Shown here in pieces: positions 6,447-59,000 of a DNA stretch of 64,000 nucleotides. Positions within the stretch are counted from its first letter, which is position 1, and the number at the start of each line of letters is the position of its first letter. This DNA comes from an uncultured Rubrobacteraceae bacterium. Lineage in GTDB: Bacteria; Actinomycetota; Rubrobacteria; Rubrobacterales; Rubrobacteraceae. The stretch is from assembly GCA_902806095.1 (NCBI GenBank), contig CADCVF010000030.1, positions 1 to 64,000 of the forward strand, written 5' to 3'. The position numbers were made by a program, and so were the translations under genes. The notes under the pieces are model-generated. The model was given only the letters and a program-made list of their open reading frames with translations. It was not told the origin of the DNA and searched no databases.

Positions 6447-6612
6447 GCTTCAGCATTTCAGCACGCTCCCGCTTCGCCTCCGCTCGTCAGCACTTCAGCC
6501 CGGCGGCTGTGCCGCCTTGTCAGCAAGTCAGCAAGGACTTGCACACGAATAAGCTGAAATGCTGACAAGTCGCCTGGCGAAGCCTGGCGGCGTGCTGAAA
6601 TGCTGAAGTGCT
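6447..6612. repeat. Hairpin-unit repeat cluster A (three units)
   Basis: This intergenic block is built from TGCTGAARTGCTGA and GCTGACAAG words in both orientations. Three units can be read. One is on the plus strand (GCTGACAAG, then CGCC-T-GGC-GAA-GCC-T-GGCG, then CGTGCTGA). Two are on the minus strand; one has a perfect GGCGGC-ACA-GCCGCC stem and the other a poorly paired GGC-GAA-GCG core. The inverted arrangement could fold into one large structure. It lies just beyond the 3' end of the AI-2E permease gene. No gene is seen here. Confidence 0.75.
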
Positions 6613-6650
6613 CGCCGTGCATAAGGCTTGAGAGCCTTATGCACGGCGAG
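6611..6650. terminator. Perfect 18-bp hairpin overlapping the 3' end of the AI-2E permease gene
   Basis: CTCGCCGTGCATAAGGCT and its exact reverse complement are separated by TGAG. The stop codon of the minus-strand permease gene (TTA at 6637-6639) lies in one arm, so the last codons are part of the hairpin. It abuts repeat cluster A. There is no T-run, so it may act as an RNA 3'-end stabiliser or Rho-assisted terminator. Confidence 0.55.
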
Positions 6651-7815
6651 AGGGACGTAGTGCTTTCAGGACTTTGTCGATCGGGCCTGGGAGGTTGTGT
6701 TTGGGGGGTTCCCTGGCGGGTGGGTTGGGGTCTGTTCCCATCTGGTCCATCTTTTGCACCCAGAGTTCGCGCACCAGGACCTGCAGAGCGGCGACGAGTG
6801 GGACGGCCAGGAAGACCCCTATCAGGCCGAAGAGTGTGCCCATTACCAGTATGGCGAATATCACGACTGCGGGATGCAGGTCCACGGCCCGGCTCATTAC
6901 GATCGGTTGGAGGAGGTTGCCTTCGATCTGCTGGATGATGATAAAGGCCAGTATCACATAGACGGCTGAGAAGGGGTCCGAGATCAGGGCCAGAAGCACG
7001 GGCAGGACGACCGAGATGAGCGCGCCCACGTAGGGGATGAACGAGATCAGACCACTCAAGAGACCGAGGAGCAGCCCGAAAGGCACCCCGATCAGGGAGA
7101 GCGAGACGGCCCAGAAGACAGCGATGAAGGTCATGGCAGCGAGCTGACCGAGGAACCACCGCTGTTCCGTTTGGTACAGTATCTGAAGCACCTCTCGCGT
7201 CCTCTGCCGCCATCCCGCTGGGAAGAGCGAGACGAACCCGTTGACCCAGGGCTCGGGCCGGATGACCAGGTAGATCGTGGAGATGAACACGACCGCCGCC
7301 AGCGAGACCACGGTCGCCGCGGTAAGCCCCACCCCAGCAGCCGTCGATACGGTGCTACCAGTGAGCACCTCTCGCCCGACCCCTGAGAGGCTTTCGGGAT
7401 CGAGGCCGATCTGGGTACCGAGCCCGAAGAAGCTCTGGAGACGGTTGGCAAGGGCGAAGGCTTCTTCCAGGAGCGTCGGGAAAGCCTCGGCCAATTGGCG
7501 GGATTGCGTCTCGACGGCGGGGACGAGCGCCAGGCCGAAGAGCCAGAGCACTAGCGCCAACGCCACTATCACCGCCAGAAGTCCCCACGTTCGCGGTAGG
7601 CCTCTCCTGGCCAGGTAGTTGACCGGAGCACTGAGTATGATGGACAGGAGGATCGTCAGCAGGAACGCCAGAATCACACCGCTGGTCCGGTAAGCGAAAT
7701 ACCCGCCCAAGAGCAGCGCGAAGACCAGCCCGATGACCGTGTACGTCGTCCTACCAGAGGCTACGGGTCTATCCACTCCCACTCCTTCGGCTGTCCCCGT
7801 AGCCCGAGAATACAC
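6637..7815 (-). CDS. AI-2E family (PerM/YdiK-type) membrane transporter
   Basis: This 392-residue protein has about eight membrane segments. An N-terminal pair surrounds VIGLVFALLLGGYFAY, followed by a long extracytoplasmic helical region (LAEAFPTLLEEAFALANRLQ) and C-terminal helices. IGVPFGLLLGLLSGLISFIPYVG and the late GTLFGLIGVFLAVPLVAAL are typical of the AI-2E/PerM family. Members transport varied small molecules and the substrate here is unknown. It is transcribed alone, between repeat clusters A and B. Its final codons lie in a perfect hairpin. Confidence 0.85.
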   Translation of the reverse strand: MYSRATGTAEGVGVDRPVASGRTTYTVIGLVFALLLGGYFAYRTSGVILAFLLTILLSIILSAPVNYLARRGLPRTWGLLAVIVALALVLWLFGLALVPAVETQSRQLAEAFPTLLEEAFALANRLQSFFGLGTQIGLDPESLSGVGREVLTGSTVSTAAGVGLTAATVVSLAAVVFISTIYLVIRPEPWVNGFVSLFPAGWRQRTREVLQILYQTEQRWFLGQLAAMTFIAVFWAVSLSLIGVPFGLLLGLLSGLISFIPYVGALISVVLPVLLALISDPFSAVYVILAFIIIQQIEGNLLQPIVMSRAVDLHPAVVIFAILVMGTLFGLIGVFLAVPLVAALQVLVRELWVQKMDQMGTDPNPPAREPPKHNLPGPIDKVLKALRPSRRA

Positions 7816-7844
7816 GACGAGCCATCAACCGTCAGCAAACAAAA

Positions 7845-7900
7845 AGCTGACAAGCTGAAATGCTGACAAGCGAAGGCGAAGCCTGAGCGTGCTGAAATGC
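7845..7900. repeat. Hairpin-unit repeat cluster B
   Basis: GCTGACAAGCTGAAAT leads into one full unit: GCTGACAAG, then the stem AGGC-GAA-GCCT, then CGTGCTGAAATGC. It lies between the start of the AI-2E permease and the end of the sugar ABC ATPase and abuts the inverted repeat at 7901. Confidence 0.75.
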
Positions 7901-7937
7901 GCGGGTAGGGGAGGGTCGCCGACCCTCCCCTACCCGC
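7901..7937. terminator. GTAGGGG-type perfect inverted repeat containing a stop codon
   Basis: GCGGGTAGGGGAGGGTCG (7901-7918) is matched exactly by its reverse complement at 7920-7937. The stop codon of the sugar ABC ATPase (CTA at 7930-7932) lies within the right arm. It shares the core GTAGGGG-(A/C)GG-(G/T)TCG with the element at 4910-4952. It is likely a transcript-end structure for the minus-strand operon. Confidence 0.6.
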
Positions 7938-8700
7938 CGTTACCCGTCTCTCGGGCCTTGCGGTACTCGGAGACGACGAGTTCGGTCAGTTCCTCGACGG
8001 AGCTCTCGGCGACGGGCTTGTCGTACTCTATGCGGCCGTTTCTGAGCAGGTTGACCCTGTCGCAGACGTCGAAGACCTGGGCGTAGTTGTGGACGATCAG
8101 GATCATGGGTATGCCGCGTTCCTCTTTGAGGCGCTGGATGAGGTCGAGGATCAAGGCCCCCTCCTTAGCCCCCATCGCAGCGAGCGGCTCGTCCAGAAGC
8201 AGCATCTTAGCGTCCGAGTAGACCGCGCGCGCCACGGCTATGGCCTGGCGCTGCCCACCAGAAAGTCTTGCCACCTCGGTGTCTATGGACGGGATGTTCA
8301 CGCCCATGTCTTCGAGGTACTGGGAGGTTTTCTCTTTCATCTTGCGGTTGTTGAGGAAAGGTCCGACGGTCATCTCGCCGTTCAGGAACATGTTGTGGAA
8401 GACCGAGAGCTCGTTGATGAGGGCGAGGTCCTGGTAGACGGTCTGGATGCCCAGAGAGCGCGCCTGGGAGACGGTGCGCAATGTCACCTCTTCTCCTTCG
8501 AGCAGAATCCTGCCCTCGTCAGGGCGGTGGAAGCCGGTAATAGTCTTGAGCAGGGTGCTCTTGCCCGCCCCGTTGTCCCCGATAAGGCCTAGTACTTCTC
8601 CTTCCCTGACGTGCAGGTCAACGCCCTTGAGGACGGAGACCGCACCGAAATTCTTGACGACGCCCTCTACACGCAAGAAGTCCGAGCCGTTCTCCATCAT
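7930..8700 (-). CDS. Sugar ABC transporter ATP-binding protein (single domain)
   Basis: The ORF track opens at 8919, but the ATG at 8700 overlaps the permease stop as ATGA and starts the ATPase proper, 256 residues. Walker A is GDNGAGKSTL, the signature RLSGGQRQAIAVARAV, and Walker B LLLDEPLAAMG. The usual histidine is present as LIVHNYAQVF. It is the short, one-domain form found with FrcA-like importers rather than the two-domain RbsA form. It is the last gene of the minus-strand operon and energises the permease upstream. The stop codon is in the 7901-7937 inverted repeat. Confidence 0.88.
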   Translation of the reverse strand: MMENGSDFLRVEGVVKNFGAVSVLKGVDLHVREGEVLGLIGDNGAGKSTLLKTITGFHRPDEGRILLEGEEVTLRTVSQARSLGIQTVYQDLALINELSVFHNMFLNGEMTVGPFLNNRKMKEKTSQYLEDMGVNIPSIDTEVARLSGGQRQAIAVARAVYSDAKMLLLDEPLAAMGAKEGALILDLIQRLKEERGIPMILIVHNYAQVFDVCDRVNLLRNGRIEYDKPVAESSVEELTELVVSEYRKARETGNGG

Positions 8701-9710
8701 GCCCTCCCCGCGCCGCGCAGCCTCGCGACGTAGACGTTGAGGATCATGGCTATAAGGATGGCGATGCCAAGGATGATGTTGAAGGTGTAGGCGCTTATGC
8801 CCTGCAGGGTGAAGCCGTTGCGGAGGATGGTGAGAACCAGTGCCCCGAGGAACGCGCCTGTAACGGTGCCGACCCCACCCAGTAGCGCTGTCCCCCCTAT
8901 GACCGCCGAGGCGATGCAAAGGAGCACGATGTCGGGCCCGCCGGCGAGCGGGTCTATGGACTGTATGCGGAAAGCCTCGATGATACCGACGAAACCGCCG
9001 AGCACGCCGCAGAGTATGAAGTTGCCGATCTTGATGCGGGCGATGCTAACGCCGGCCTCCCTGGATCCGAGCGGATTGCCGCCCGTGGCGTAGGTGTGCA
9101 GCCCCCACCGGGTGCGCGCGAGGACGAGCTGCAACACGGCGATGATGAGTAGGGTCCATATGGTCCCGGCCCAGGCGTACTCCCCGAGCACCTGGGTGAT
9201 GGTGCTCGTCTCCGGCGTAATCGCGGGGAAGCCACCGGTGAGCGTCACGTTCAGGCCAGCGAGAAGGAAGAACATCCCCAAGGTAGTGATCAGCGAGGAT
9301 ACGCCGAGGTAGACCGTGATCAGGCCGTTTATCAGGCCGACCACGGCCACGGCCAGGAGCCCGACGACCACCGCGAGCGGCAAGACGAGGAAGAGTTTGT
9401 CGTAGGCCAGGTACATCACGATCGGTGCGAACGCGAACGACTGGCCGACGGAGAGGTCGATCTCACCGCAGATGAGCAGCAAACACAACGCCGATGCGAT
9501 AACCACGTAAGGCACGGCGAACTGGGCGAGCGAGAGGAGGTTCTGCTGCGAGAGGAACGCTCCGTTCACCGCCTGAAAGTAGAGCGCCAACCCCACCAGA
9601 ACGATAAGTATGCTCACCTCCCGCACCCGGACGAGCCCGCTCAACAGGCGGCCTGCGAATCCGCGCTCTTGCGTCCCGGCCCCCGCCTCTCGCGCCGTGG
9701 TCTCGCTCAC
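8697..9710 (-). CDS. Sugar ABC transporter permease (RbsC/FrcC-like)
   Basis: This 337-residue membrane protein has eight to ten hydrophobic segments. CLLLICGEIDLSVGQSFAF and ASAVIGGTALLGGVGTVTGA are the two hallmark segments of BPD_transp_2 (ribose/xylose/fructose) permeases. It lies between the substrate-binding protein gene (28-base gap) and the ATPase (ATGA overlap), so the three form one import unit. The start ATG follows GAGGTAACG. The imported sugar is not determined by sequence. Confidence 0.9.
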   Translation of the reverse strand: MSETTAREAGAGTQERGFAGRLLSGLVRVREVSILIVLVGLALYFQAVNGAFLSQQNLLSLAQFAVPYVVIASALCLLLICGEIDLSVGQSFAFAPIVMYLAYDKLFLVLPLAVVVGLLAVAVVGLINGLITVYLGVSSLITTLGMFFLLAGLNVTLTGGFPAITPETSTITQVLGEYAWAGTIWTLLIIAVLQLVLARTRWGLHTYATGGNPLGSREAGVSIARIKIGNFILCGVLGGFVGIIEAFRIQSIDPLAGGPDIVLLCIASAVIGGTALLGGVGTVTGAFLGALVLTILRNGFTLQGISAYTFNIILGIAILIAMILNVYVARLRGAGRA

Positions 9711-9738
9711 GTTACCTCCTCTCGCCTTCGGCCAAGGC

Positions 9739-10845
9739 CTAAGCTTGCGACGGCGCCTTCAAGATCTTCTGCGTTTCGGAGTCACCCTCGAAGCGCGACG
9801 AGGTCTCGAGATAACGATCCACAGTGTCAGGCGTAATGAAGACGAGGCCCGTATTGGTCTCGGCAGGGCCCGTGACCCCGCCGGAGATGTTGTACAGATA
9901 GAGTTGTATGACAGGGAGGAAGCCTTGCAGGTAGGGCTGTTGGTCGATGGTGAAGTCTATGTGGCCCTTGCCCATGTTGTCCAGGATCTGTGGCGTCAGA
10001 TCGTACCCGCCGGCCTTGACGCCCCTGTCGTGCAGGCCGAATTGCTCCATCGTCTGGGCGACACCCTGGGTGCTCCCCGCGTCGACGGCGAACATCCCTG
10101 CCACGTCCTTGTGACCGTTGTACCAGGCCTCGATTCTGGACCTCTCTTCGGTAACTTCGGCGCCCGTGGTGACCTGTTGTATCTCTATGTTCTTCCCAGA
10201 ATCCTCTATAGCCTGCCTGGCGCCGTCGATTCTCGGCTGGATGTTGAGCTGGCCCGGCGTCGCTATAAAGAGCGCCACAAGTCCCTCGTCGACAAGGCTG
10301 ACGATCCGCTTGCCCATCTCCACACCGGAGAGGAAGAGGTCCTGGCCCACGTACGCTAGCGCGGGGTTGGTCCCTGGTCCCTTCCCGTTGGCGTTGTAGG
10401 CGATGACCGGGATGCCGTTGTCCAGGGCCTTCTGGATCGGCTTGTTGAAAGCCACAGGGTCTACGACACAGACGGCTATGCCATTCGCGTTGCCCGAGAT
10501 GGCGGTGTTCATCGCGTCGACCATCTCTGAGACGACAGATTCCTCCGAGCCCGTCCACTGTGATGTGGTCCCGAGCAGGGCCTGCGCATCCTCGATACCG
10601 TACTGGGTCGGTACGAAGAACGGGTTAGTGGTCACGTGGTTGACGAAGACGAAGTTCCACTCCGGCGTGTCCGGGAAGTTGCCGCCAGACCCGCCTCCAC
10701 CGCCCTGGCTCGCCTGCTGCGCAGCCTCGCGTCTGCACCCCGCGAGCAACAAGCCCGCGGACGCCAGCGCACTCCCAGCGAGAAACTGCCTGCGGCCCAG
10801 CCTGTAGTCCCCAAGTCCCCTTGCGCCGGACTCACGCTCACTCAT
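9739..10845 (-). CDS. Sugar ABC transporter substrate-binding lipoprotein
   Basis: This 368-residue secreted protein has a twin-arginine signal (RRQFLAGSALASAGLLL) ending in the lipobox LLLAGC. A glycine- and glutamine-rich linker precedes the Peripla_BP_4 domain. Motifs such as VNHVTTNPFFVPTQYGIEDA, AVDAGSTQGVAQTM and DFTIDQQPYLQGF are those of fructose/ribose-type (FrcB-like) binding proteins. It is the first gene of the importer half of the operon. An operator-like ATTGTTATACCAAT lies 47 bases upstream, matching one before the gntR gene. Confidence 0.9.
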   Translation of the reverse strand: MSERESGARGLGDYRLGRRQFLAGSALASAGLLLAGCRREAAQQASQGGGGGSGGNFPDTPEWNFVFVNHVTTNPFFVPTQYGIEDAQALLGTTSQWTGSEESVVSEMVDAMNTAISGNANGIAVCVVDPVAFNKPIQKALDNGIPVIAYNANGKGPGTNPALAYVGQDLFLSGVEMGKRIVSLVDEGLVALFIATPGQLNIQPRIDGARQAIEDSGKNIEIQQVTTGAEVTEERSRIEAWYNGHKDVAGMFAVDAGSTQGVAQTMEQFGLHDRGVKAGGYDLTPQILDNMGKGHIDFTIDQQPYLQGFLPVIQLYLYNISGGVTGPAETNTGLVFITPDTVDRYLETSSRFEGDSETQKILKAPSQA

Positions 10846-10891
10846 CTATCACCCCTGTCTGTAGCTTTCCAAAAACCCTTCCCCTGCCGAT

Positions 10892-10905
10892 ATTGTTATA
10901 CCAAT
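10892..10905. promoter_or_regulatory. Putative FCD-GntR operator upstream of the sugar-binding protein
   Basis: ATTGTTATACCAAT reads TGGTATAACAA on the other strand, which fits the FadR-subfamily consensus TNGTNTNACNA. The same sequence with one change occurs upstream of the gntR gene at 14566. This suggests one regulator controls both the catabolic and the import halves. Confidence 0.55.
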
Positions 10906-10936
10906 ATGTATTCGTGTCAAGCGCACGCGCCTGACG

Positions 10937-11716
10937 TTACTCTGGACCGTCCCCCTGGTCCCACCACAGGCCCATCCTGGCCGTGGTACCGCCGTCCACG
11001 TAGAGGACCTGCCCCGTGACGAAATCAGCTGCGTCGGAGACGAGGAAGGCTACTGCGGGGGCGACGTCATCAGGACGGCCCACGCGGCCCCAGGGGACCA
11101 GGGTATTGCCGAACTCGGTCGTGTAGTCCGGGATGTCGAAGTAGCGGGGGACCTCTATGATGCCTGGGCCGACGGCGTTGACGCGAACCTTGCGGTCCGT
11201 GAGCTCTATGGCGAGCTGGCGGGTGAAGGCCCCGATCGCGCCTTTGGTAGCCGCGTAGGCCGTGTGGTTGGGGAAACCAGCGAACCCGTGGACCGAGGTT
11301 ACGTTGACGATGCTCCCACCTCCCCTCTCCATCATGAGAGGCACGGCCCTCCTGGCGAGGAAGAAGTAGCCCTTCATATTGAGGTCGAAGACCGAGTCGT
11401 AGGTCTCCTCGTCAGTGTCGAGGAAATCTATGGTCTTGGTAACGCCGGCGTTGTTTACGAGCGTATCGAGCCCGCCGAGGGCCTCGGCCGCAGCGTCCAT
11501 GGTGCTCTCACAATCACCTACTTTGCTCAGGTCGCCCTGTACCGTGGCGGCCTTGCCGCCGAGCTCCTCGATCTGTGAGACGGTCTCATCCGGCTCGGTG
11601 TGGGCGTAGTGGACGGCGACCTCGGCTCCGCGGCGGGCGAGCTCGACGGCGATGCCCTGGCCTATCCCCATCCCGGCTCCGGTGACCAGCGCCTTCTTCC
11701 CCGAGAGGTCGCTCAC
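10937..11716 (-). CDS. SDR family NAD(P)-dependent oxidoreductase
   Basis: This 259-residue short-chain dehydrogenase has the cofactor motif [10 protein letters not shown], the NNAG motif (LVNNAGVTK), and the catalytic serine and YAATK (Tyr-x-x-x-Lys) at about residues 143-160. The C-terminus has the usual [12 protein letters not shown]. It overlaps the enolase-superfamily gene by ATGA. It probably oxidises or reduces a sugar or sugar lactone imported by the adjacent ABC system. The exact substrate is not readable. Confidence 0.88.
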
Positions 11717-12879
11717 TGGTCAGCCTTCGTGCCGGCGCCCTCGCGCCTCTCCCAGCCTTCGGCGAAGAGGTTGAAGTGGACGTCCTGCTTGGGGTGGGCT
11801 TCGATGACTTCCTCGTCCAGCTCGACACCGAGGCCTGGTCCCTTGGGGAGCTCGAAGTAGCCTTCCTTGACCTCCGAGAGGCCTGGGGCCGTCTCGCGGA
11901 CCCAGGGGTCGGCGAAGTCGTTGAAGTACTCCTGGATGCGGAAGTTCGTGGTGCAGGCTGCGAGGTGGAGGGCTGCTGCGGTGTTGATCTGGCCTCCGAC
12001 GTTGTGCGGGGCGACGGTCACGTAGTACGCGTCGGCCCACGACGCGAGCTTCTTCGTCTCGAGCAGCCCGCCGATGTGGCTTATGTCGGGTTGGATCACA
12101 TCAGCAGCCTGAAGTTCGAAGACCTCTCTGTACTCCAGCCGCTGGTGGATGCGTTCGCCTGTGGCAACGGTCGCCTCTATCCCATCCGAAGCTTTCTTGA
12201 GGGCCTTCAGGTTCACCGGAGGTACGGGCTCCTCGACCCAGCCGAGTCCGAAGGGCTGGAGCATCCTGGCCATCTCTATTGCGGTAGCCGGGGAGAAGCG
12301 GCCATGCATCTCCAGCAGGATCTCTACCTCGGGTCCTATCGCATCGCGGACGGCCTCGACGAGCGAGACGGCCTGTATCTTCTCCTCGTACTCGAGTTCG
12401 TAGTGTCCTGGGCCGAAGGGATCCAGCTTCAGCGCCCTGTACCCACGCTCCACGACCTTCTTCGCGGCCTCGTGGAACTCCTCTGGCGTGCGCTCGACCC
12501 TGTACCAGCCGTTGGCGTAGGCCTTGACTCTGTCCCTTACGGGCCCGCCCAGCAGGTTGTAGACAGGCTGTCCGAGTGCTTTGCCGACGATGTCCCAGCA
12601 GGCCGTCTCGAACATCGCTATACCGCTGCTCATAACCTCGCCGGCGCGCGAGAAATCGTCGCGGCCCATCTTCTTGACTAGCTCCTCTATCTCGAACGGA
12701 TCATGCCCGACGAGGTGCCTAGGGGCCGCCTCGGCCAGGTATCCGACGAGAGCGTCCGTGTGGTTGACCATCCGCGCCTCTCCTAGACCCGTCAATCCAT
12801 CGTCCGTGTGGGCGCGGATGATGGTCAGGTTGCGCCACTCGGTGCCGACTACGAACGTGTCTACGTGGGTTATCTTCAT
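11713..12879 (-). CDS. Mandelate racemase/muconate lactonizing family protein, galactonate-dehydratase-like
   Basis: This 388-residue enolase-superfamily enzyme keeps the barrel residues in order: KLDPFG (general base region), [10 protein letters not shown] (first metal ligand and histidine), WVEEPVPP (second ligand), ATGERI (third), [11 protein letters not shown] and APHNVGG (catalytic histidine). The His after the first metal ligand and the TGER motif resemble sugar-acid dehydratases such as D-galactonate dehydratase. It is ATGA-coupled on both sides. It most likely dehydrates a sugar acid to a 2-keto-3-deoxy acid, but no dedicated KDG kinase or aldolase is in this window. Confidence 0.82.
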
Positions 12880-13823
12880 GCCCTCTCCTTTGCCTCGGCG
12901 TCGACGGGCAAGCCGGGGAATGTTGAGCCTGGCGGGGTAGTCTCGGCCTCGGGGAAGTAGCGCATGAGCATCTCCTGTCCGATCCTGGCGCGCCTGACCC
13001 TCTCCCTTCCGAGCGCGACCGCCGTCGCCTCCAGGTGTGTGCCGCTGGGGTAGATATTCGGTGCGTTTCTCAGGCCGAACTTGACGAAGACTGGCGAAGC
13101 GACCCTTACGAGGTCGGGGATTTCGTAGTGCCTCACGAACCCCCCGAAGTCGTCGGGCACCTCGACGTATACGTCGAGCGGGAGGTCACAAGCGGCGCGT
13201 ATCGCGGCGAGTTGGGCCAGCGACAGGTCTGTTGGCACGTTGTACGTGTCCGCCCCGAGGTCCTCCATAGCCTTTACGGCCGCCGCGTTGGCCGCGGCGA
13301 GCTGTACGGAGACCTTCAGGACGAGGTCCTCGGGCAACTCTCCATTCGCCTTGAGGTCTCTCAGGACCCAGAGGAGTCCGGCGTCGGCGACGAGTACCCC
13401 GCGCAGTCCCAAAGAGACGCCGCGCAGCACGTCTTCCAGGGCGTAGGCGAGCTGGTCCTGGCCGCGGTGCTGGGCTCCCAGGACCTTGCCTGCGCCGGAG
13501 ACGGCGGTCGCGCCGGTCTCCCACGAGGCCCGCGGCCCGACGAAGAGCGAGAGCTCCAGGGCGGCCTCGCGCGCCATCTGGCACATCTCTAGAATCTCCG
13601 CGTCCGTGAGGAGCATGATCCCCGACCCCTGGGAGACGCGGTGGATCTGGACTTCTCGTCTGTGGGCCTCCTCGATCACCGCCTCGAGCACCCGCGGTCC
13701 TTCGACGCTGGGGATCTCGACCCTGTACTGCGCCCCGTCAGGGAAACGCTTCTGCGAGTCGGGCAAATCGTGGAGGTCGCGTCCAGGCAACCCCAGTCCG
13801 GACAACAGCTCGTTGGCCTTCAT
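12876..13823 (-). CDS. U32 peptidase-like TIM-barrel protein in a sugar catabolic operon
   Basis: This 315-residue protein resembles U32/collagenase-like proteins. Visible segments include LKVSVQLAAANAAAVKAMED, GADTYNVPTDLSLAQLAAI and LPLDVYVEVPDDFGGF, which alternate beta-alpha as in a barrel. No signal peptide or membrane helix is seen, so it should be cytoplasmic. It is ATGA-coupled to the gntR gene before it and the dehydratase after it. A role in sugar metabolism is more likely from this context than peptide cleavage; that is inference, and no catalytic residues can be assigned. Confidence 0.6.
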   Translation of the reverse strand: MKANELLSGLGLPGRDLHDLPDSQKRFPDGAQYRVEIPSVEGPRVLEAVIEEAHRREVQIHRVSQGSGIMLLTDAEILEMCQMAREAALELSLFVGPRASWETGATAVSGAGKVLGAQHRGQDQLAYALEDVLRGVSLGLRGVLVADAGLLWVLRDLKANGELPEDLVLKVSVQLAAANAAAVKAMEDLGADTYNVPTDLSLAQLAAIRAACDLPLDVYVEVPDDFGGFVRHYEIPDLVRVASPVFVKFGLRNAPNIYPSGTHLEATAVALGRERVRRARIGQEMLMRYFPEAETTPPGSTFPGLPVDAEAKERA

Positions 13824-14554: not shown

Positions 14555-14565
14555 ATCCCCAATGC

Positions 14566-14579
14566 ATTGTCATACCAAT
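14566..14579. promoter_or_regulatory. Putative FCD-GntR operator upstream of gntR
   Basis: ATTGTCATACCAAT lies 11 bases upstream of the gntR ATG and differs by one base from 10892-10905. On the other strand it reads TGGTATGACAA, within the consensus TNGTNTNACNA of FadR-like regulators. Confidence 0.55.
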
Positions 14580-14622
14580 CAGGATGCCTGTCAAACGGTG
14601 TCGAACATCGGGCGCTCTACGG

Positions 14623-15411: not shown

Positions 15412-15552
15412 GATAAAGGAGCGGTCGCGGGTCGCACAGCCGGACATCTTGACTGGAGATGATCTTATGACCCATGATGGAGCTTGAACGTGTCTCACCG
15501 CGGGCATGATAGAGGGACGAGTACATAGAGGCGCTGGAGAGGGGCGATCTTC

Positions 15553-16590: not shown

Positions 16591-16624
16591 GCACGGCCCC
16601 CGATATGCCCGTGAGCACCACCGC

Positions 16625-32286: not shown

Positions 32287-32288
32287 AG

Positions 32289-32448
32289 CATGTCAGCACG
32301 CCGCTTCGCGGCTTGTCAGCACTTCAGCTAGTCAGCATTTCAGCTTTCTGTATGCGAGACCTGGTTGACAAGGCGGCGGAGCCGCCGTGCTGAAGTGCTG
32401 ACAAGCGGAAGCCGGAGGCTGGAGCGTGCTGACTAGCTGAAATGCTGA
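32289..32448. repeat. Hairpin-unit repeat cluster C (three units)
   Basis: One minus-strand unit has stem GCCGC-GAA-GCGGC. Two plus-strand units have stems GGCGGC-GGA-GCCGCC and AGCC-GGA-GGCT. All are flanked by TGACAAG and CGTGCTGA and joined by TGCTGAAGTGCTGA or GCTGACTAGCTGAAAT words. It fills most of the rhaI-rhaEW gap and ends 22 bases before the rhaEW start. If the operon is read through, the hairpins are in its mRNA. Confidence 0.75.
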
Positions 32449-37711: not shown

Positions 37712-37780
37712 TCCCAAGTCTGTTAGAAGGGACCTTATTCGGACTGCTGGCGAGCACGCCGAGGTCCTCCCATACACGTC

Positions 37781-37800
37781 ATTCCCGCGAAAGCGGGAGG
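37781..37800. repeat. dRS3-like palindrome, copy 1
   Basis: ATTCCCGCGAAAGCGGGAGG matches ATTCCC-N8-GGGAAT at 18 of 20 positions. It ends nine bases before the GTG of the orphan antitoxin, so its right end supplies the GGGAGGAG Shine-Dalgarno. An exact copy of the consensus is at 46996 near the paralogous intact module. Confidence 0.65.
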
Positions 37801-37809
37801 AGAGAGACC

Positions 37810-38070
37810 GTGTCCTGGCAGTTGCAGGAAGCCAAGCAGAGGTTCAGCGAGTTGGTGCGGCGCACTTTGGAGGAGGGCCCTCAGGTGGTGACGAGGCACG
37901 GCGAGGAGGTCGTCGTGGTGGTCCCTGCTGAGGAGTTTCGGCGGACGAGTGGGGAGAAGCCAGACTTCAAGGAGTATCTGATGAGTGCACCGGAGGGGTT
38001 GGAGCTCATAATCCCTGAACGTCCGCCGAACGACTTTCCGCGAGAGGTAGACCTGACGGACGGAGATTGA
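37810..38070 (+). CDS. Phd/YefM-family antitoxin, orphaned
   Basis: The GTG at 37810 starts an 86-residue antitoxin: SWQLQEAKQRFSELVRRTLE, then QVVTRHGEEVVVVVPAEEF, the classic Phd/YefM N-terminal DNA-binding fold with a variable toxin-binding tail. It is about 88 percent identical at DNA level over its first 130 bases, by eye, to the antitoxin at 47161. The toxin gene after it is cut to about 15 codons, so the module is broken. A dRS3-like element sits at the ribosome-binding site and the operator seen at the intact locus is missing. Confidence 0.85.
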   Translation: MSWQLQEAKQRFSELVRRTLEEGPQVVTRHGEEVVVVVPAEEFRRTSGEKPDFKEYLMSAPEGLELIIPERPPNDFPREVDLTDGD

Positions 38071-40050: not shown

Positions 40051-40112
40051 AGAGCCAGCCGAAGAAGAGGAATGATACAGAGTCAGTTCGAAGGGGATTC
40101 TGCGTTGCTGTC

Positions 40113-40132
40113 ATTCCCGCGCAAGCGGGATC
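40113..40132. repeat. dRS3-like palindrome, copy 2
   Basis: ATTCCCGCGCAAGCGGGATC has the ATTCCC-N8-GGGA core and the same GCG(C/A)AAGC centre as copies at 37781 and 46996. Two end bases deviate from the consensus. It is preceded by GTC and followed by CCACA, as in copy 3 after its GGGAAT. Confidence 0.65.
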
Positions 40133-40361
40133 CACAAGCAGGAGAGTGGTGGGTAATTGGCGTACTTCGTCGTGAGGTTGGTATTCACGCGGACTTGGTA
40201 CGAGAGGATCCTACGCCAGAGATTTCCTTCACACATCAAACGCCTCCTTGCGATCCTCGACAATTGAGTTATCGAGCATGACTCTTTAGTATTCTCCTTC
40301 TACGATGACCGTCTTCGGGATCATGGCGAGCACCTCGAGGTCTTTCGGGCCATAAGCGAAG

Positions 40362-40423
40362 AAGCTGAAGTGCTGACAAGCGACAGCCGAAGGCTGGAGC
40401 GTGCTGACTTTCTGAAATGCTAA
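40362..40423 (+). repeat. Hairpin-unit repeat cluster D
   Basis: GCTGAAGTGCTGACAAG leads to the stem CAGCC-GAA-GGCTG, then GAGCGTGCTGACTTTC and a decayed TGAAATGCT. It ends 12 bases before the GH38 start codon, in the same orientation as the units before rhaEW and the second MFS gene. Confidence 0.75.
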
Positions 40424-46816: not shown

Positions 46817-46995
46817 GAGGGGACGACCCGAAGCCTCTCCCGACGCCCGAACCCGATACCCGTCGGCTTACTCAGGAGTTCGCGAATTCACCTGGAGGTC
46901 GGGAGATCCTATGGTTTATGTCCTGGTTCAGGAGGCTCCACCTTCGTCCGTCAGTTTCCAACATGATGAGCGTCATCCACGCTTCTTCTCTCGTC

Positions 46996-47015
46996 ATTCC
47001 CGCGAAAGCGGGAAT
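46996..47015. repeat. dRS3 palindrome, copy 3 (exact consensus)
   Basis: ATTCCCGCGAAAGCGGGAAT fits the consensus ATTCCC-N8-GGGAAT exactly. In Neisseria this sequence is a dispersed repeat used as an insertion target by filamentous phages. Here it lies 145 bases upstream of the intact antitoxin gene; a near copy is next to the decayed paralogue. Confidence 0.8.
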
Positions 47016-47092
47016 CCACAGCAGCAGGCACTCAGCACCTCCAGATGCGATCTACCGGACTACGTATCACGTGGGGGTCGAGTCTTACGGTC

Positions 47093-47160: not shown

Positions 47161-47409
47161 GTGTCCTGGCAATTACAGGAAGCCAAGCAGAAGTTCAGCG
47201 AGTTGGTGAGGCGCACATTGGAAGAGGGACCGCAGGTAGTTACGAAGCACGGCGAGGAGGTCGTCGTGGTGGTCCCGGTCGAGGAGTTCCGGAGGATGAA
47301 CAATGACGGCGAGAAGATGGACTTCAAGGAGTTCCTGATGAGCGCGCCGGATTTGAGTGTGTTGGATCTGGAACGTCCGAAAGAGTTGCCGCGGGACGTC
47401 GAACTGTAG
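47161..47409 (+). CDS. Phd/YefM-family antitoxin
   Basis: The GTG at 47161 is chosen by alignment with the paralogue at 37810 and by GGAG upstream; the product is 82 residues. SWQLQEAKQKFSELVRRTLE and GPQVVTKHGEEVVVVVPVEE form the DNA-binding N-terminal fold; the tail (FKEFLMSAPDLSVLDLERPK) should wrap the PIN toxin. It lies four bases before the toxin start. A strong promoter with an ATCTAG/CTAGAT operator precedes it, consistent with autoregulation. Confidence 0.88.
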   Translation: MSWQLQEAKQKFSELVRRTLEEGPQVVTKHGEEVVVVVPVEEFRRMNNDGEKMDFKEFLMSAPDLSVLDLERPKELPRDVEL

Positions 47410-49850: not shown

Positions 49851-49905
49851 ATGTAGGCTCTCGCGTAGGAGAGCTCCGCGAAGCTGGCGGCGTGTCGAAT
49901 GAACC
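49851..49905 (-). pseudogene. Fragment of a DnaE-type DNA polymerase gene
   Basis: The minus strand reads RHAASFAELSYARAYM, nearly the same as AHAASFAHLSYASAYM in the DnaE2 gene at 55180-55230. At DNA level about 38 of the first 44 bases agree with that gene. Only about 18 codons remain and the frame continues into unrelated sequence. It is a relic of a duplicated or displaced dnaE gene. Confidence 0.65.
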
Positions 49906-50015
49906 AGGGCGCACTCAACGACCCGGCGGGCACGAGGCTACTGCCGATCTGGCTTGTGATCGCCGACGGCTCTCGCGCCTCAGGCTTCGGCGCGGGGGAT
50001 AGAATCAATCGAACG

Positions 50016-53059: not shown

Positions 53060-53146
53060 GCCAGGTATGCTCTCGATCGAGGGATCGGGACTCAATGCTT
53101 TCTTTCACCCGGCCTTCGATCAGGAACGCTCCTTCACGGTACGGGA

Positions 53147-53686
53147 TTATTGCCGTTCCGGTTCATAGATGAGCGCCACAACGCCCGAGCTGAACGACTG
53201 TGATTCGAGAAGCTTCAACGTCGCAGGGGTATCCTCTTCGAACAGGCGCTTGCCTTTGCCCACGACCAACGGGTAGACAAGAAGTCGATAGCGATCCACA
53301 AGATCATGCTGCATGAGCGTTTGCACCAGCGTGGCGCTGCCGTGGACCGTGATGTCCTTGCCGTCCTGCTGCTTGAGGTCGGTGATTTGTTCCACGATAT
53401 TGTCTTTGATCAGCCTCGAGTTGTTCCACTCCAGGGACTCTTCGAGGGTCCCAGAGACTACGTATTTGCGCACGCTGTTGAAGTAATCTGCCCCTTCATC
53501 GTTGCTCTCTGGCCAGGCTGCCGCAAACCCTTGATAGGTCACGCGTCCCAGGAGCAAGGCATCGCTTGCGGTCGACTCTTCGCTTTTGAACTTCGCGATC
53601 TCGTCGTTCCAGTACTCGAACGTCCACCCCGGCTCTTCCATAACGCCATCCAGTGACACGAATTCGGTGACGACTATATTCCGCAC
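53147..53686 (-). CDS. RibD C-terminal/dihydrofolate reductase-like protein
   Basis: This 179-residue protein begins VVTEFVSLDGVMEEPGW and has ALLLGRVTYQGFAAAWP and ITVHGSATLVQTLMQHDLVD, the three signatures of the COG0262/RibD_C family. These bind NADPH, but most stand-alone members have unknown substrates and are not true folate reductases. It ends VVGKGKRLFEE. The start ATG has AAAGGAGACC upstream. It is a single gene, convergent with ggt. Confidence 0.87.
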   Translation of the reverse strand: MRNIVVTEFVSLDGVMEEPGWTFEYWNDEIAKFKSEESTASDALLLGRVTYQGFAAAWPESNDEGADYFNSVRKYVVSGTLEESLEWNNSRLIKDNIVEQITDLKQQDGKDITVHGSATLVQTLMQHDLVDRYRLLVYPLVVGKGKRLFEEDTPATLKLLESQSFSSGVVALIYEPERQ

Positions 53687-53774
53687 GATGGTCTCCTTTT
53701 ACCGTTCGCCTTCTATACCGCAATCATAGGGCAACAAGAAGACAGAGCCTCGTTGGAATGGCGGAACTACCGGA

Positions 53775-54044
53775 TCAACTGGCAAATCTCCTCGCGGCCT
53801 GCGTCCGCGCCTTTTCCGCCTCTACTTCGCGGTTTCTGGGCGGCGCCTTGGTCTCCAGTGAGGCAAGCAGTCTGTTCGAGGCTGCCGCTATCTCATGGAC
53901 GGCGGCATAAAAGGCGACTTCGTTGGCTTTGGATGGCTTGTTGAAGCCACTGATCTTGCGCACATATTGTAACGCTGCCGCGCGGACTTCTTCGTCGTTG
54001 ACGGGTGGATCGAAATTGTACAGGGTCTTGATGTTTCGACACAT
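53775..54044 (-). CDS. DUF2277 family protein
   Basis: The track ORF opens at 54128, but MCRNIKTLYNFDPPVNDEEV at 54044 is the invariant start of the DUF2277 family, with GGGAG upstream. The 89-residue product contains AALQYVRKISGFNKPSKANE and ends with PPRNREVEAEKARTQAARRF, all typical. It is a small cytoplasmic protein common in actinobacteria and proteobacteria, with no known function. Confidence 0.85.
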   Translation of the reverse strand: MCRNIKTLYNFDPPVNDEEVRAAALQYVRKISGFNKPSKANEVAFYAAVHEIAAASNRLLASLETKAPPRNREVEAEKARTQAARRFAS

Positions 54045-54179
54045 TTGCTCCACTCCCTCGCCGTGGATCTCATAGTACATGTTGGGGTCATTTACCTGAG
54101 CGTAGTTATTCCTCCTGCGGTTGGGCATCGTCTGCGCGCAGCATACGGCACGAATCCGGAAATCCTATAGCGATTTTCG

Positions 54180-57100
54180 TCACCCCGCTCGTCTGCCGGG
54201 CTTCCTGGCTCGGATGAAGCTGCCCGAGGCGGAGACTGCACGCTCTGTGTCGATCGAGGTCCCTGGGTGTCGCCTGGCGAGTGCTTTACCCAGATCCCCT
54301 ATCTGCTCGACGAGGAAGGAGAAACCGCGCCGGTCGTCCTGTTCGACGCGCCCCTCGAGCAGGAAGGCGCCGGACCGATGGAGGAGGTGCCCGTACTTCT
54401 CGTAGACGCGCTCGAAGATCGTGGCTTGCAAGAGGCCCCTTTCGTCCTCCAGGAGCAAGAAATAGACGGGTCTTCCGCTCTTGGTGGGCGGTCGTTGCAG
54501 GCACTCGATGAGGCCTGCGGCAAGGACTCTCGTGCCGTGCGGAAGGTCGAGGATCTCCTGGCTGGGGACGACGCCGAGTTCTTTCAGGGTCCGGCGGTAC
54601 GAGAGCAAGGGGTGACTGACGACGTCCAGGGAGAGGACCGCTTTCTGCTCCCGCTCCGCTTTGCCGGGCGGCATCGGCAGGTTGTGGAGAGACGCGCCGC
54701 TCAGATCGTACCCGGCGGATGCCCGCGCCTCCCACCAGCTCGCCGGGTGCGGCAAGGGTATCTCCGGATGCCCCGTACGGCCCCGCTTCTTCGGCAGGCG
54801 ATCGGCCTCGGCCAACAAGGGCGCGCGGTCAGCCCCGGCCAGGGGGTCCAGGAATCCCCCTTTTATGAGGTTCTTCAGGGCGTCCTTCTGGACGGGAGTC
54901 CTCCTGTAGAGGTCAGCGACCGAGGCGAAAGGACGCGCCTCCCTCTCGTGGATAATCCCCTCGATCGCCAGCCGGGAGAGTCCCTTGGAGTACGAGAGGC
55001 CCACCCTGAGCGCGGTGCCGTCCTTCTCCACGGAAAAGCCCTCATCCGACGCGAAGACGTCGGGCGGGAGGACTCCGAGGCCGATCCTCCTGGCCTCGTT
55101 GAGCAGGACCCTGGGGCTGTAGAAGCCCATCGGCTGGGAGTTGAGCAGGCCGCAAAAGAACTCGGCCGGGTAGTGGACCCTCATGTAGGCGCTCGCGTAG
55201 GAGAGGTGCGCGAAGGAGGCCGCGTGGGCTTTCAGGAAACCGTAAGAGGCGAAGCCCTCCATCCAGTCGAAGACCGTGTCCGCCGTCTTCTTTGGCACGC
55301 CGCGGTCGACGGCACGCTGGAGGAACCTCCGCCTCATTCCGGCCATCGCCCCAGACCCGCGGTCCTTGGTCATCGCGCGCCTGAAGCCGTCGCCCTCGGC
55401 CAGCGCGAAACCGGCGACGGCGCGCGCCACCTCCAGTACCTGCTCCTGGTACATCAGCACCCCGTAGGTGGGCCTCAGGATGTCGTCGAGCTCCGGCAGG
55501 GGCACCGAGTAGGGCTCGCGGCCATTCCTCCTGAGCACGTACGGGGTGACTAGGTCGCCGCGCACGGGACCTGGCCTGAAGAGCGAGATCTGGGCAACCA
55601 GGTCCGAGAAGCGTCTGGGTTTCAGCCGGCGGCTCAGCTGCATCTGGCCAGGGCTCTCCAGCTGGAACATACCCGCGTTGCGACCGGTGCGCACGAGGCG
55701 GAACGCTTCCCTGTCCTCGGGGGGCGGGGAGAGCGGGTCCACCTTCTTGCCAGTCCTCCTCGTCGCCAACTCGCCGGCCTTCTGCAGTGCCGTATGCATC
55801 TTGAGGCCAAGGATGTCGAGCTTGGGGATGCCACAATACTCGAGGCCGTCTTTGTCGTACTGGCAACGCAACAATCCCTCCTTACCAGAAGGCTCCAGGG
55901 GCACGAGATCCGACAGGTGGTGTTCGGCCGTCCCGAAGACGAGGCCGCCGTTGTGGGTGCCAGCCCCCTGCAGCCTGCCGGCGAGCCCCGCGGAGAGCTC
56001 TAGCAGGAGCCGGTATCTCTCCGTGTCTTGCAAGGGGTGCCCCCGCATGGCCGGCTCTCTGAGCACCTCTTTCCAACCGTCGAGACCGGCGTAGACCTTG
56101 TCGCGGTCCGAAAAGCGGGTCGGGACGTGGCGGGAGAGGACGTCGATCTCCTGCGGCGGGTGGCCCAGTGCACGGGCCGCGACCCTGACGGCGCCCCTCA
56201 AGGAATAGGAGGCCGCAGTTCCGGCGACGGCTACCCCCCTACGCGCGTGGCGCCGCTCCAACTCGTCCCGCACCTCGTCGCGGCGCTCGGAGCAGAAGTC
56301 CAGGTCGATGTCCGGCGGGTCCCTTCGCTCCTCGTGCATGAACCTCTCGAAGAGCAGGCGGTTGGAGAAGGGCTCGGGCTGCGTCAGGCCCAGACAGTAA
56401 GAGACCAGGCTGTTCGCCGCGCTCCCTCGGCCCGTGACCGGCACGCCCTTTTCGCGGGCTATCTCCACGGCCTCCAGGGCCAGCAAGAAGTACGGCGCGA
56501 AGCCCAGGTCCTCGATGCACGAGAGCTCACGCCGCAGGCGCGAAACGACCTGTCGGTTCAGTCCCCCGTACCTCTCCCTCGCGCCGCGCAGCGCGAGCTC
56601 GACGAGGACCTTCCCAGGGTCTTCGTGTTGTGAGGCTGGGACGTGGACCTTGCCTGACAACCTCACGGCGCCCGCGCACCGCCAGGCGACCTCCGCCGCG
56701 GTATGCAAAGACCAGGGACGGTACGCGAACAGGCGAACCATCCTCCTCGCGTCCTTGAGCCACAGCTGGTCGGTCGGCCGGTAGCCGGGGCCTGGTAACC
56801 GGGAGAGGTTGGACGCAGCCACGAGCGTCTCGTGCAGACGGTGGTCAGCGGGCTCGAGGTGCGCCACCTCGTTGGTCGCCAGGGTGGGCACGCCGCAGCC
56901 TTCGGCGAAGGAGGCTACCCGACCCATCCTCCTGCGGCTCCCTGCAGTCCCGTCGTCGGTCAGCTCGACGAAGAGGTTGCCCTCCCCGAACGACTCGCGT
57001 AGAAGACTCAACACCTCCCACGCTCGTTCGCTGTGGCCAGAGAGGATCAGGCCTGGCAAGAGCCCGAAGGGCACAGCCCCAGTGAGGCAGACGAGCCCTG

Positions 57101-57464
57101 CGGCGTGCTCGAGCAGGACTTCGAGGGAACACGCCGGGCAGCGCCGGTCTTCCGCAGCGCACCGGTAGGCCGTGATGAGCCGGCACAGGGAGCGGTACCC
57201 TTGCATGGACTCGGCCAGCAGCACTACGTGCCCCCATGCAGTCGAGACCTCGGCTCCGACGATGGGAAGGATACCGGCTTTATCCGCGGCTTCGAGAAAC
57301 CTCGGAATACCGTAGAGTCCGTCGCGGTCCGTGAGCGCCAGAGAGGACATCCCCATCCTCGCCGCTGCCTCCACGAGCTCTTCTGGCCTCGCGACCCCGA
57401 AACCGAAGGAGAACCCGCTCCTGGCGTGCAGATGGACGAAGTTGTCTGGGGACTCTTCGTTCAA
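54180..57464 (-). CDS. dnaE2: Error-prone DNA polymerase III alpha subunit (DnaE2)
   Basis: The track starts at 57662 inside the preceding gene. The TTG at 57464 overlaps that gene's stop (TTGA) and starts NEESPDNFVHLHARSGFSFGFG, giving 1094 residues. The PHP domain covers the first 210 or so residues. The polymerase aspartates are in PPDIDLDFCSERRDEV near residue 385. HAASFAHLSYASAYMRVHYPA and the C-terminal OB-type domain (DERGLLQATIF) match DnaE2. Length and domain set fit the mutagenic SOS polymerase. LexA and an SOS box lie just upstream, but no ImuB gene is nearby. Confidence 0.9.
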   Translation of the reverse strand: MNEESPDNFVHLHARSGFSFGFGVARPEELVEAAARMGMSSLALTDRDGLYGIPRFLEAADKAGILPIVGAEVSTAWGHVVLLAESMQGYRSLCRLITAYRCAAEDRRCPACSLEVLLEHAAGLVCLTGAVPFGLLPGLILSGHSERAWEVLSLLRESFGEGNLFVELTDDGTAGSRRRMGRVASFAEGCGVPTLATNEVAHLEPADHRLHETLVAASNLSRLPGPGYRPTDQLWLKDARRMVRLFAYRPWSLHTAAEVAWRCAGAVRLSGKVHVPASQHEDPGKVLVELALRGARERYGGLNRQVVSRLRRELSCIEDLGFAPYFLLALEAVEIAREKGVPVTGRGSAANSLVSYCLGLTQPEPFSNRLLFERFMHEERRDPPDIDLDFCSERRDEVRDELERRHARRGVAVAGTAASYSLRGAVRVAARALGHPPQEIDVLSRHVPTRFSDRDKVYAGLDGWKEVLREPAMRGHPLQDTERYRLLLELSAGLAGRLQGAGTHNGGLVFGTAEHHLSDLVPLEPSGKEGLLRCQYDKDGLEYCGIPKLDILGLKMHTALQKAGELATRRTGKKVDPLSPPPEDREAFRLVRTGRNAGMFQLESPGQMQLSRRLKPRRFSDLVAQISLFRPGPVRGDLVTPYVLRRNGREPYSVPLPELDDILRPTYGVLMYQEQVLEVARAVAGFALAEGDGFRRAMTKDRGSGAMAGMRRRFLQRAVDRGVPKKTADTVFDWMEGFASYGFLKAHAASFAHLSYASAYMRVHYPAEFFCGLLNSQPMGFYSPRVLLNEARRIGLGVLPPDVFASDEGFSVEKDGTALRVGLSYSKGLSRLAIEGIIHEREARPFASVADLYRRTPVQKDALKNLIKGGFLDPLAGADRAPLLAEADRLPKKRGRTGHPEIPLPHPASWWEARASAGYDLSGASLHNLPMPPGKAEREQKAVLSLDVVSHPLLSYRRTLKELGVVPSQEILDLPHGTRVLAAGLIECLQRPPTKSGRPVYFLLLEDERGLLQATIFERVYEKYGHLLHRSGAFLLEGRVEQDDRRGFSFLVEQIGDLGKALARRHPGTSIDTERAVSASGSFIRARKPGRRAG

Positions 57465-57883
57465 TCCGTCACCCCTACGAGGAACCACTCCCTGTCGTTC
57501 TCCCGCGCCAGGTCGACGACCGAACCGTCGGAGAGGAGGACCCTCACGAGGCTCCTGTCCTTCGCCCGCTCCTCGTCCCACCACGCCCGAACCTCCCGCC
57601 AGCGTCCAAGAACCTCGACGACGTAGTGCCTCTTGCGGCACCGTCTCCGGCCCGAAGACCACACGATCCGCACGCGCCCGTGGCGGTTCTCCAACTCGAC
57701 CGGCTCCCGCAGGATACGGGCGACCTGCCCGACCCCCTCTATCTCCGAGGCCAGCGAGAGCCAGGGTGCCAGGAGTAGGTGATCCAGGACCCTCCTCCTC
57801 GACTCGCGGGTAGGGAAAAGCGGCTCCTCGAACCCCTCGGGCCGCAAGGGGTAGCAGTGTATCTCCGAGACGCTCGCCTCCAT
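57461..57883 (-). CDS. DUF6504 family protein, partner of DnaE2
   Basis: The ATG at 57883 has a strong GGGAGGAGAG upstream and gives 140 residues; the track start at 57937 is less likely. RCRKRHYVVEVLGRWREVRA, WWDEERAKDRSLVRVLLSDG and ENDREWFLVGV match the DUF6504 domain, which in many actinobacteria sits beside or within ImuB/DnaE2 gene sets. The stop overlaps the dnaE2 start. It probably helps assemble the translesion polymerase; this is from gene association only. Confidence 0.72.
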   Translation of the reverse strand: MEASVSEIHCYPLRPEGFEEPLFPTRESRRRVLDHLLLAPWLSLASEIEGVGQVARILREPVELENRHGRVRIVWSSGRRRCRKRHYVVEVLGRWREVRAWWDEERAKDRSLVRVLLSDGSVVDLARENDREWFLVGVTD

Positions 57884-58072
57884 CTCTCTCCTCCCTCCAG
57901 GGAGCGCCAGAGCCGGGGGATGAGAAACCCGCGCCACCGGATATAATCCAGGGAGCAGGCGTCCTCGCCTCCTTCTAACCTTCGCAGGCCGGTGCTGGTT
58001 GGACGCCGGCCGGCCCGCGAGGCCCGGGGTGGGGGCGCTCCTGCTTTGCCGTTCTTCTCTCTACGCTACCAC

Positions 58073-58086
58073 AAACTAATGTTTGC
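58073..58086. promoter_or_regulatory. SOS box (LexA operator)
   Basis: CAAACTAATGTTTG has perfect CAAAC/GTTTG arms around TAAT, the Gram-positive/actinobacterial LexA pattern (CGAAC-N4-GTTCG type with one change per arm). Its right end forms part of a TTTGCA -35, with TATAGA 16 bases on, upstream of lexA. It lies between the divergent lexA and DUF6504-dnaE2 transcripts, so it may control both. Confidence 0.75.
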
Positions 58087-58141
58087 AGTCTACGGCAAAA
58101 TCGTATAGAGTGTCATCGCGAGGCGTTCAGAGGAGACGATA

Positions 58142-58807
58142 ATGGTCCCTGAGAACTGGAAGGTAAGGATGGAGATGCTCCGGCGCCTGGCCCGTGCTGG
58201 TGCGAGGGGAAAGGGGCCTCCGAGCGTGCGCGAGGTGGGGGAGGCTGTGGGCCTGAAGAGCTCCCAGACCGCGTACAAGCACCTCAAAAAGCTTGAGGAG
58301 GCTGGGTACATCGAGCGGGAGGCTGGACGGGCGCGCGGCATCAGGCTGACGGAGAAGGGTTGGGAGGTCGCGGGCGAGATGCCCCTGATGGGTAGGATCG
58401 CCGCCGGGCGAGGGCTCGAGGCTGTGACGGTCGGGGATGAGGCCTACTCGCTGGCGGCAGAGCTAGTGGGGTCCCGCTCGGGCAGACGGCGATACCTTTT
58501 GAGGGTCGTTGGGCAGTCCATGATCGGGGCCCACATAGCAGACGGGGACCTCCTGGTCGTAGAGGAGGACGAAGCTCCGCCAGACGGCGCAGTCGTAGCA
58601 GCCCTAATCGGGGACGGAGAGGAGGTCACCGTCAAGCGGCTCTACCGCGAGAGGGGCGAAGGCGGAGACCTCCTGCGGCTAAGGCCCGAGAACGGGGACC
58701 ACGAGGACCTAATCATGCCAGCCGAGGACGTAACCATACAAGGACGCGTAGTCTACGTCGTACACCCGCCCAGAGGAAAGTCCAGCAATTCAGCACGCTC
58801 CGGCTGA
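58142..58807 (+). CDS. lexA: SOS repressor LexA
   Basis: This 221-residue repressor-protease has a winged helix (PPSVREVGEAVGLKSSQTAYKH, residues 26-47), an Ala-Gly cleavage site in GRIAAGRG (residues 88-89), the catalytic Ser126 in VGQSMIG and Lys165 in VTVKRLY. RecA-stimulated self-cleavage would relieve repression. It is divergent from the DUF6504-dnaE2 operon with an SOS box between. GAGGAGACGATA precedes the ATG. The last residues (SSNSARSG) and the stop codon are encoded inside repeat cluster E, so the C-terminus was reshaped by the repeat. Confidence 0.92.
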   Translation: MVPENWKVRMEMLRRLARAGARGKGPPSVREVGEAVGLKSSQTAYKHLKKLEEAGYIEREAGRARGIRLTEKGWEVAGEMPLMGRIAAGRGLEAVTVGDEAYSLAAELVGSRSGRRRYLLRVVGQSMIGAHIADGDLLVVEEDEAPPDGAVVAALIGDGEEVTVKRLYRERGEGGDLLRLRPENGDHEDLIMPAEDVTIQGRVVYVVHPPRGKSSNSARSG

Positions 58808-59000
58808 CGCCTCCACTTATCAGCACGCCGCCTGCGGCGGCTTGTCAGCACTTCAGCAAGTCAGCAAGAACCTGCAAGCGAGGCTCCAACACGCAGCCCC
58901 AGCCTCCGTGGCAATCGATGCGGAGCCTTTATCCACCGCCGAGCAAAGCTGACTAGCTGACAAGCGCCCGACAGGGCGCGTGCTGAAGTGCTGAAATGCT
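58781..59000. repeat. Hairpin-unit repeat cluster E (three units)
   Basis: Minus-strand units carry stems GCCGCC-GCA-GGCGGC and AGGC-GTCA-GCC. A plus-strand unit carries GCGCCC-GACA-GGGCGC. All are flanked by TGACAAG (or TGATAAG) and CGTGCTGA and joined by CTGAAGTGCTGA words. The cluster overlaps the lexA stop codon at one end and the start codon of the following MFS gene at the other. About 75 bases between the two arms contain nothing I recognise. Confidence 0.75.

Follow-up and report, generated by a model that had tools for sequence, protein, structure and literature searches.

Repeat elements of paired octamer arrays with inset hairpins in Rubrobacteraceae: a probable REP/REPIN-like family

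The 64-kb stretch analyzed here (in the following, the window) is contig C30 of the genome of an uncultured Rubrobacteraceae bacterium (G000; 3.83 Mb in 85 contigs), and it harbors five repeat elements carrying eleven short hairpin units (Table 1). An earlier note on this DNA had described eleven such units at five places; all of them are present, and two covariance models, R1 for long units and R2 for simple units, whose training set included some window copies, together return exactly those eleven and no further match passing E = 0.4 in the window. The word GCTGANNNGCTGA was counted 18 times in the window compared to 0.21 expected from dinucleotide shuffles (none of 100 shuffles reached 18), and GTGCTGAARTGCTGA was found 109 times genome-wide, with zero occurrences of the reversed control pattern. 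The statement that no named family carries these words held as well, insofar as none was found in the literature searched nor in Rfam (no matches of the window at gathering score, Rfam 15).

Table 1. Repeat elements and hairpin units in the window, with covariance-model scores.
Feature	Position	Strand	Score	Description
Element 1	6450-6612			Left and right arms separated by 20 nt of spacer (aaggacttgcacacgaataa, 6533-6552); neighbors: ABC-transporter ATPase gene and AI-2E-type transporter gene, both on -
Hairpin unit	6458-6491	-	R1 43.3 bits	GCTGACGAGCGGAGGCGAAGCGGGAGCGTGCTGA, long type, stem partly decayed
Hairpin unit	6495-6524	-	R2 37.8 bits	Stem GGCGGC-ACA-GCCGCC
Hairpin unit	6561-6598	+	R2 34.3 bits	Long stem, tip GGC-GAA-GCC
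Element 2	7846-7900	+		Lone right arm, octamers and one unit
Hairpin unit	7862-7895	+	R1 57 bits	GC-GA-AGGC-GAA-GCCT-GA-GC (tandem G.A internal loop, GAA loop)
Element 3	32287-32448			Arm pair, begins immediately after the TAA that terminates the sugar-isomerase-like gene upstream
Hairpin unit	32293-32320	-	R2 45.9 bits	Stem GCCGC-GAA-GCGGC
Hairpin unit	32364-32393	+	R2 41.8 bits	Stem GGCGGC-GGA-GCCGCC
Hairpin unit	32397-32432	+	R1 58.4 bits	GC-GGA-AGCC-GGA-GGCT-GGA-GC
Element 4	40364-40421	+		Lone arm, upstream of GH38-type gene
Hairpin unit	40372-40407	+	R1 58.7 bits	GC-GA-CAGCC-GAA-GGCTG-GA-GC
Element 5	58784-59000			Arm pair, 82-nt spacer 58866-58947
Hairpin unit	58790-58824	-	R1 45.1 bits	Tip GGC-GTCA-GCC
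Hairpin unit	58820-58849	-	R2 52.7 bits	Stem GCCGCC-GCA-GGCGGC
Hairpin unit	58956-58986	+	R2 48.2 bits	Stem GCGCCC-GACA-GGGCGC

The units are real, but the layout first proposed, a stem between two conserved flanks, splits up what is one larger structure. An element consists of a minus-strand left arm, a spacer and a plus-strand right arm, and single units are only part of it; the arms are made up of consecutive GCTGANNN octamers, with hairpins inset in the order GCTGA-CAAG-stem-CGT-GCTGA. Unit and element statistics were obtained from 820 kb of G000 stretches, some of which had been picked for holding matches. In these, 176 flank-defined units (129 distinct) and 119 elements were sampled, 67 of the latter with paired arms, and array spacings were of the octamer type in 334 cases versus 8 of the heptamer type. 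Of 71 cases of neighboring arms with the '-+' order, 67 are separated by 218 nt or less, whereas the '+-' order was never found within 400 nt. The spacers fall into a frequent 20-nt type, resembling cagggcttgcgcacgcgaaa and occurring in either orientation, and several longer types of ~80-130 nt. When folded as single-stranded DNA, elements 1 and 3 each form one branched hairpin (z -7.6 for 6452-6612 and z -6.8 for 32287-32448).

The outer element end reads ...GCTGANNNGCT and stops exactly at GCT, the following base being random. Paralogous elements at unrelated loci have arms and spacer in common, and their similarity ends at the element ends, so that a few recent large duplications, the circumstance under which the earlier note would have given up its interpretation, do not account for the copies. 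Inverted terminal arrays, conserved spacer families and dispersed paralogues would also be expected of a miniature inverted-repeat transposable element (MITE), i.e., a DDE transposon reduced by internal deletion, in which the GCTGA arrays would be terminal transposase-binding sites. No target-site duplication of 1-12 nt was detected for 23 elements, no longer, transposase-bearing copy was present among the 119 sampled elements, and repeated nested hairpins as observed here are, to our knowledge, unusual in MITEs, which leaves this origin improbable. A 3-nt duplication signal was mostly due to uncorrected ends and lost significance once these had been corrected. Four '-+' pairs with over 600 nt between their arms were considered as an autonomous parent and discarded, as they enclose ordinary genes.

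Two further features were observed. In the related genome G006 (L233, L236), there are elements built of GCTGANN heptamer arrays, some of them free of hairpins, indicating that arrays and hairpins are separable. Moreover, long perfect hairpins with 18-bp arms are located just outside element ends in the window (6611-6650 and 7901-7937) and also in L174, L180 and L168; their sequences are very different and their layout is similar (GC-hairpin-GCT, without a T-run), and they possibly represent terminators or a third hairpin module.

The earlier claim that the stems covary was borne out. Perfect stems were found in 88% of the simple units compared to 25 ± 7% after shuffling arms between units, and in 87% of the long units compared to 28 ± 5%, the unit set behind these figures having been selected partly by complementarity. 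Because of this bias, a second set was defined by flanks only, and the hairpin is present in 122 of its 129 distinct sequences. In alignment A2, comprising 30 distinct simple units, 99.4% of the cells pair, two-sided changes amount to 32 versus 8.1 in shuffled alignments, and pairing drops to at most 57% when the arms are slid; alignment A1 gave a similar but weaker result. Only one G-U pair was encountered in ~418 paired cells. The covariation is thus real, but the earlier step from compensatory change to selection on structure is not strictly compelling. Covariation without intermediates may be due to selection, to templated palindrome correction or to the exchange of whole hairpins between copies, the last of which is suggested by the comparison of same-gap elements. 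Given the scarcity of G-U pairs and these other routes by which pairing could be restored, it is not strict proof of selection.

The loops obey a narrow rule. Of 93 triloops, 65 are of the type GNA, and of 21 tetraloops, 19 are of the type GNNA, compared to 5.8% and 5.5%, respectively, for background hairpins of G000. Extraordinarily stable DNA mini-hairpins have been described with GNA or GNNA loops and G-C closing pairs (PMC4686876), and a hyperstable d(cGNNAg) DNA mini-hairpin is quoted in PMC8373063; the unit loops follow this rule. Pooled over four genomes, pyrimidines outnumber purines 22 to 13 at the third base of GNNA, and, lacking a purine preference, the loops do not conform to the GNRA rule of RNA. 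The sequence of the GA/GA and GGA/GGA internal loops suggests sheared G.A pairs. When the two strands are compared, the one reading GCTGA has the higher stability for 120 of 129 units under DNA energies and for 88 of 129 under RNA energies. Loop statistics of this kind represent a simple sequence test for distinguishing DNA-level from RNA-level action of a repeat.

A regular 8-bp period, high copy number and intergenic position could also suggest arrays of protein-binding sites (nucleoid or topology sites), in which the GCTGA octamers are bound and the hairpins are incidental. However, covarying stems and a strict loop rule require paired strands, and many copies in one relative have a 7-bp period instead (GCTGANN), which makes such arrays a very improbable explanation.

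Regarding genomic placement, for which genes were called with our own simple codon-usage gene finder, none of the 119 elements lies within a gene; 46 occupy convergent, 62 tandem and 6 divergent gaps. Among gaps of at least 60 nt, 46 of 77 convergent ones are occupied versus 6 of 107 divergent ones (Fisher p 2e-16). Element ends facing a stop codon are positioned 10 nt or less from it or overlap it in 53 of 89 cases, as opposed to 2 of 43 start-facing ends, and of the 27 stop codons overlapped by element ends, 21 are TAG. In the window, the lexA frame (58142-58807) enters element 5, which provides its last codons and the TGA stop (58807). We infer that this 3'-end placement reflects tolerance at these positions, perhaps with a secondary effect on transcript ends.

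The same placement, flush with stop codons, is what would be expected if the elements acted at the RNA level, as messenger RNA (mRNA) terminators or barriers to 3' exonucleases selected at each gene end. The strong folding of whole elements and the occupied convergent gaps, in which an element with inverted arms could serve both genes, point in the same direction. Canonical terminators were rejected, as no T-run follows the element ends. Moreover, the near absence of G-U pairs and tetraloops of the GNNA rather than the GNRA type speak against action as RNA, and so do a narrow taxonomic spread and the fact that elements in the same gap of sister genomes often are quite different in hairpins and arms. 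Taken together, an RNA-level role appears unlikely.

The covariance models, which had been proposed as a check, recovered many more units outside the window, in G000 and in related Rubrobacteraceae genomes. The numbers of matches to the two models, which are lower bounds for the richest genomes (113-150 candidates were scored per genome), were at least 119 and 143 for G000, 88 and 95 for G006, and 76 and 85 for G008, followed by 52 and 48 for G002 and 21 and 13 for G014. Other genomes of the genus yielded 0-18 and other genera 0-3 matches, and covariance-model search returned no units in 24 genomes from the same phylum but from other families. Among the genomes searched, the repeat family is confined to Rubrobacteraceae.

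Element positions are mostly common to G000 and G008, and often to G006, too, whereas hairpins and spacers usually differ. One pair in the same gap is near-identical except for an octamer (L189:14347 and L156:893), and another (L197 and L141) features a two-sided change, GCACCC-GTCA-GGGTGC versus GCGCCC-GACA-GGGCGC. In four of six compared gaps, octamers of G000 correspond to heptamers in G006. Global same-gap alignments revealed messy intergenic replacement, with sites mostly occupied in both genomes and their contents exchanged, which may reflect either overwriting between elements within a genome or reuse of the same permissive gaps.

The search for a REP (repetitive extragenic palindrome)-associated transposase, suggested in the earlier note, returned no REP-associated tyrosine transposase (RAYT). 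In the Rubrobacteraceae genomes searched, PF01797 (Y1_Tnp) matched only in G000 (two genes, L038 and L041) and G008 (one gene, L039), i.e., in two of five genomes rich in units, and all three are IS605-type tnpA genes with a YxxxQ motif beside tnpB, flanked by neither GCTGA arrays nor units. PF01797 seemed a promising RAYT at first, since it is encoded only where the exact octamer word is most frequent, namely in these two genomes, and RAYT-type REPs served by this IS605 tnpA would fit that coincidence. Tandem occurrence with tnpB, the unit-free flanks and the lack of a Y1 gene in G006, which carries at least 88 units, led us to reject the candidate; furthermore, both genomes are close relatives and therefore count as one event. 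This scenario is extremely unlikely. A class 3 TnpA_Y1 gene was not found either, the PF01797 profile giving no Y1 match in three unit-rich genomes.

Considering these results, the repeats probably represent a new REP/REPIN-like, non-autonomous family in Rubrobacteraceae. Of the three options put forward earlier (RNA element, protein-bound DNA and mobile REP-like unit), the last one fits best with regard to copy number, inverted pairs, 3' placement, stop codons and paralogues; what it lacks are the tag and the RAYT. In such a family, the units would fold, probably on the GCTGA strand, into very stable DNA mini-hairpins that have GNA or GNNA loops and sheared G.A pairs, and the arms would pair into one branched hairpin during a single-stranded stage, such as replication or a transposition-like step. 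Copies might then spread and overwrite one another via single-stranded DNA or a gene-conversion-like process. CTGA at the foot of each hairpin could have a guide role, as GTAG has in REPs, and the enzyme behind the spread may be unrecognized or lost.

Several observations weigh against this interpretation. A GTAG-like tetranucleotide is absent from the hairpin foot, the consensus of which is GCTGACAAG / CGTGCTGA. CGTC REPs are defined by a CGTC-like tag, an 8-9 bp stem starting with A/T pairs and a CCA-like tail; here, neither such a tag nor such a tail is present, and GC-richness of the stems begins at their very first pair. The repeats are not accompanied by a RAYT, PF01797 being represented only by the IS605 tnpA of two genomes and being absent, even at E 1, from G002, G006 and G014, though these are unit-rich. 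The comparison of relatives at the same gaps gave no clean empty site, so that insertion itself is something we infer, and positions largely common to sister genomes imply that present movement is slow. In addition, placement at 3' ends would suit an RNA-level element just as well, GNA loops occur, on a given strand, in just one arm of a pair with their complement in the other, and action as DNA rather than RNA is judged from loop and pair statistics. Since the tests for tag and transposase failed, the repeats are placed outside the GTAG and CGTC superfamilies, as a REP-like variant.

A more far-reaching version of the REP-like reading is put forward only tentatively and is rather doubtful at present: a RAYT-less system in which a hyperstable GNA/GNNA DNA mini-hairpin would be the building block and an unrecognized enzyme would use arrays of the foot word CTGA for guidance or cleavage, combined with a concerted, genome-wide switch from the octamer to the heptamer version at fixed gene ends.

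If the REP-like assignment is correct, REP-like repeats extend to Rubrobacteraceae, and the repeats would be a second large REP-like population without a recognizable transposase, after the CGTC REPs. The architecture of hairpins within tandem arrays and the loop rule are not described for REPs in the literature searched. Genomes whose copy numbers range from zero or few to dozens or hundreds, together with relatives featuring differing versions in the same gaps, constitute a natural comparison series, by which spread and homogeneity of RAYT-less REPs become directly testable.

Among known systems, the bacterial interspersed mosaic elements (BIMEs) of E. coli are mosaics of inverted palindromic units; the elements described here are inverted-unit mosaics, too, whereas sequence, tag and arms differ. 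A separate family in the same genome, the dRS3/CGTC-1 repeats, also forms short hairpins with a GNNA loop (GAAA and GCAA in the window). Copies of the GTCATTCCCGCGAAAGCGGGAATCCA type, with words of this REP family, are located in the window at 37778-37812, 40110-40144 and 46993-47027, and further copies of the CGTC-1/dRS3 type reside within spacers of the new elements (L180, ~9403-9696; L181, ~8898-9152). In small adjacent reading frames, the window also contains a 139-nt direct repeat, the copies of which (37810-37948 and 47161-47299) share 88% identity at a distance of 9.35 kb.

GTAG and CGTC REPs have been reported as short, high-copy intergenic hairpins adjoining stop codons, with the repeat supplying TAG stops, and they form inverted dimers with spacers of mostly 20-100 bp and sub-families with alternative complementary stems (Di Nocera 2013, PMC3733652). 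Copy number, inverted dimers, stop-codon placement, TAG supply and alternative complementary stems are therefore points of likeness. In contrast, hairpins here lie inside tandem GCTGANNN octamers, several per element, and their loops are GNA or GNNA as opposed to the TY or CMA reported for GTAG families; moreover, the host group, Rubrobacteraceae, is not among the phyla listed for REPs (PMC3733652). Structures associated with TnpA_Y1 class 3 have a 5' foot CnGA and reach ~600 copies in Solibacter (PMC6006769); in terms of their description, they resemble the present repeats in high copy number and in a foot, CTGA, that fits CnGA. REPINs (Bertels and Rainey 2011, PMC3116915) are accompanied by a RAYT, which was not found here, and lack the composite arms of the present elements. 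Like these, they consist of two inverted ends and a spacer folding as one hairpin, with common compensatory changes and a dispersed distribution, and the 67 '-+' pairs, together with the fold z values of -7.6 and -6.8, agree with such a doublet.

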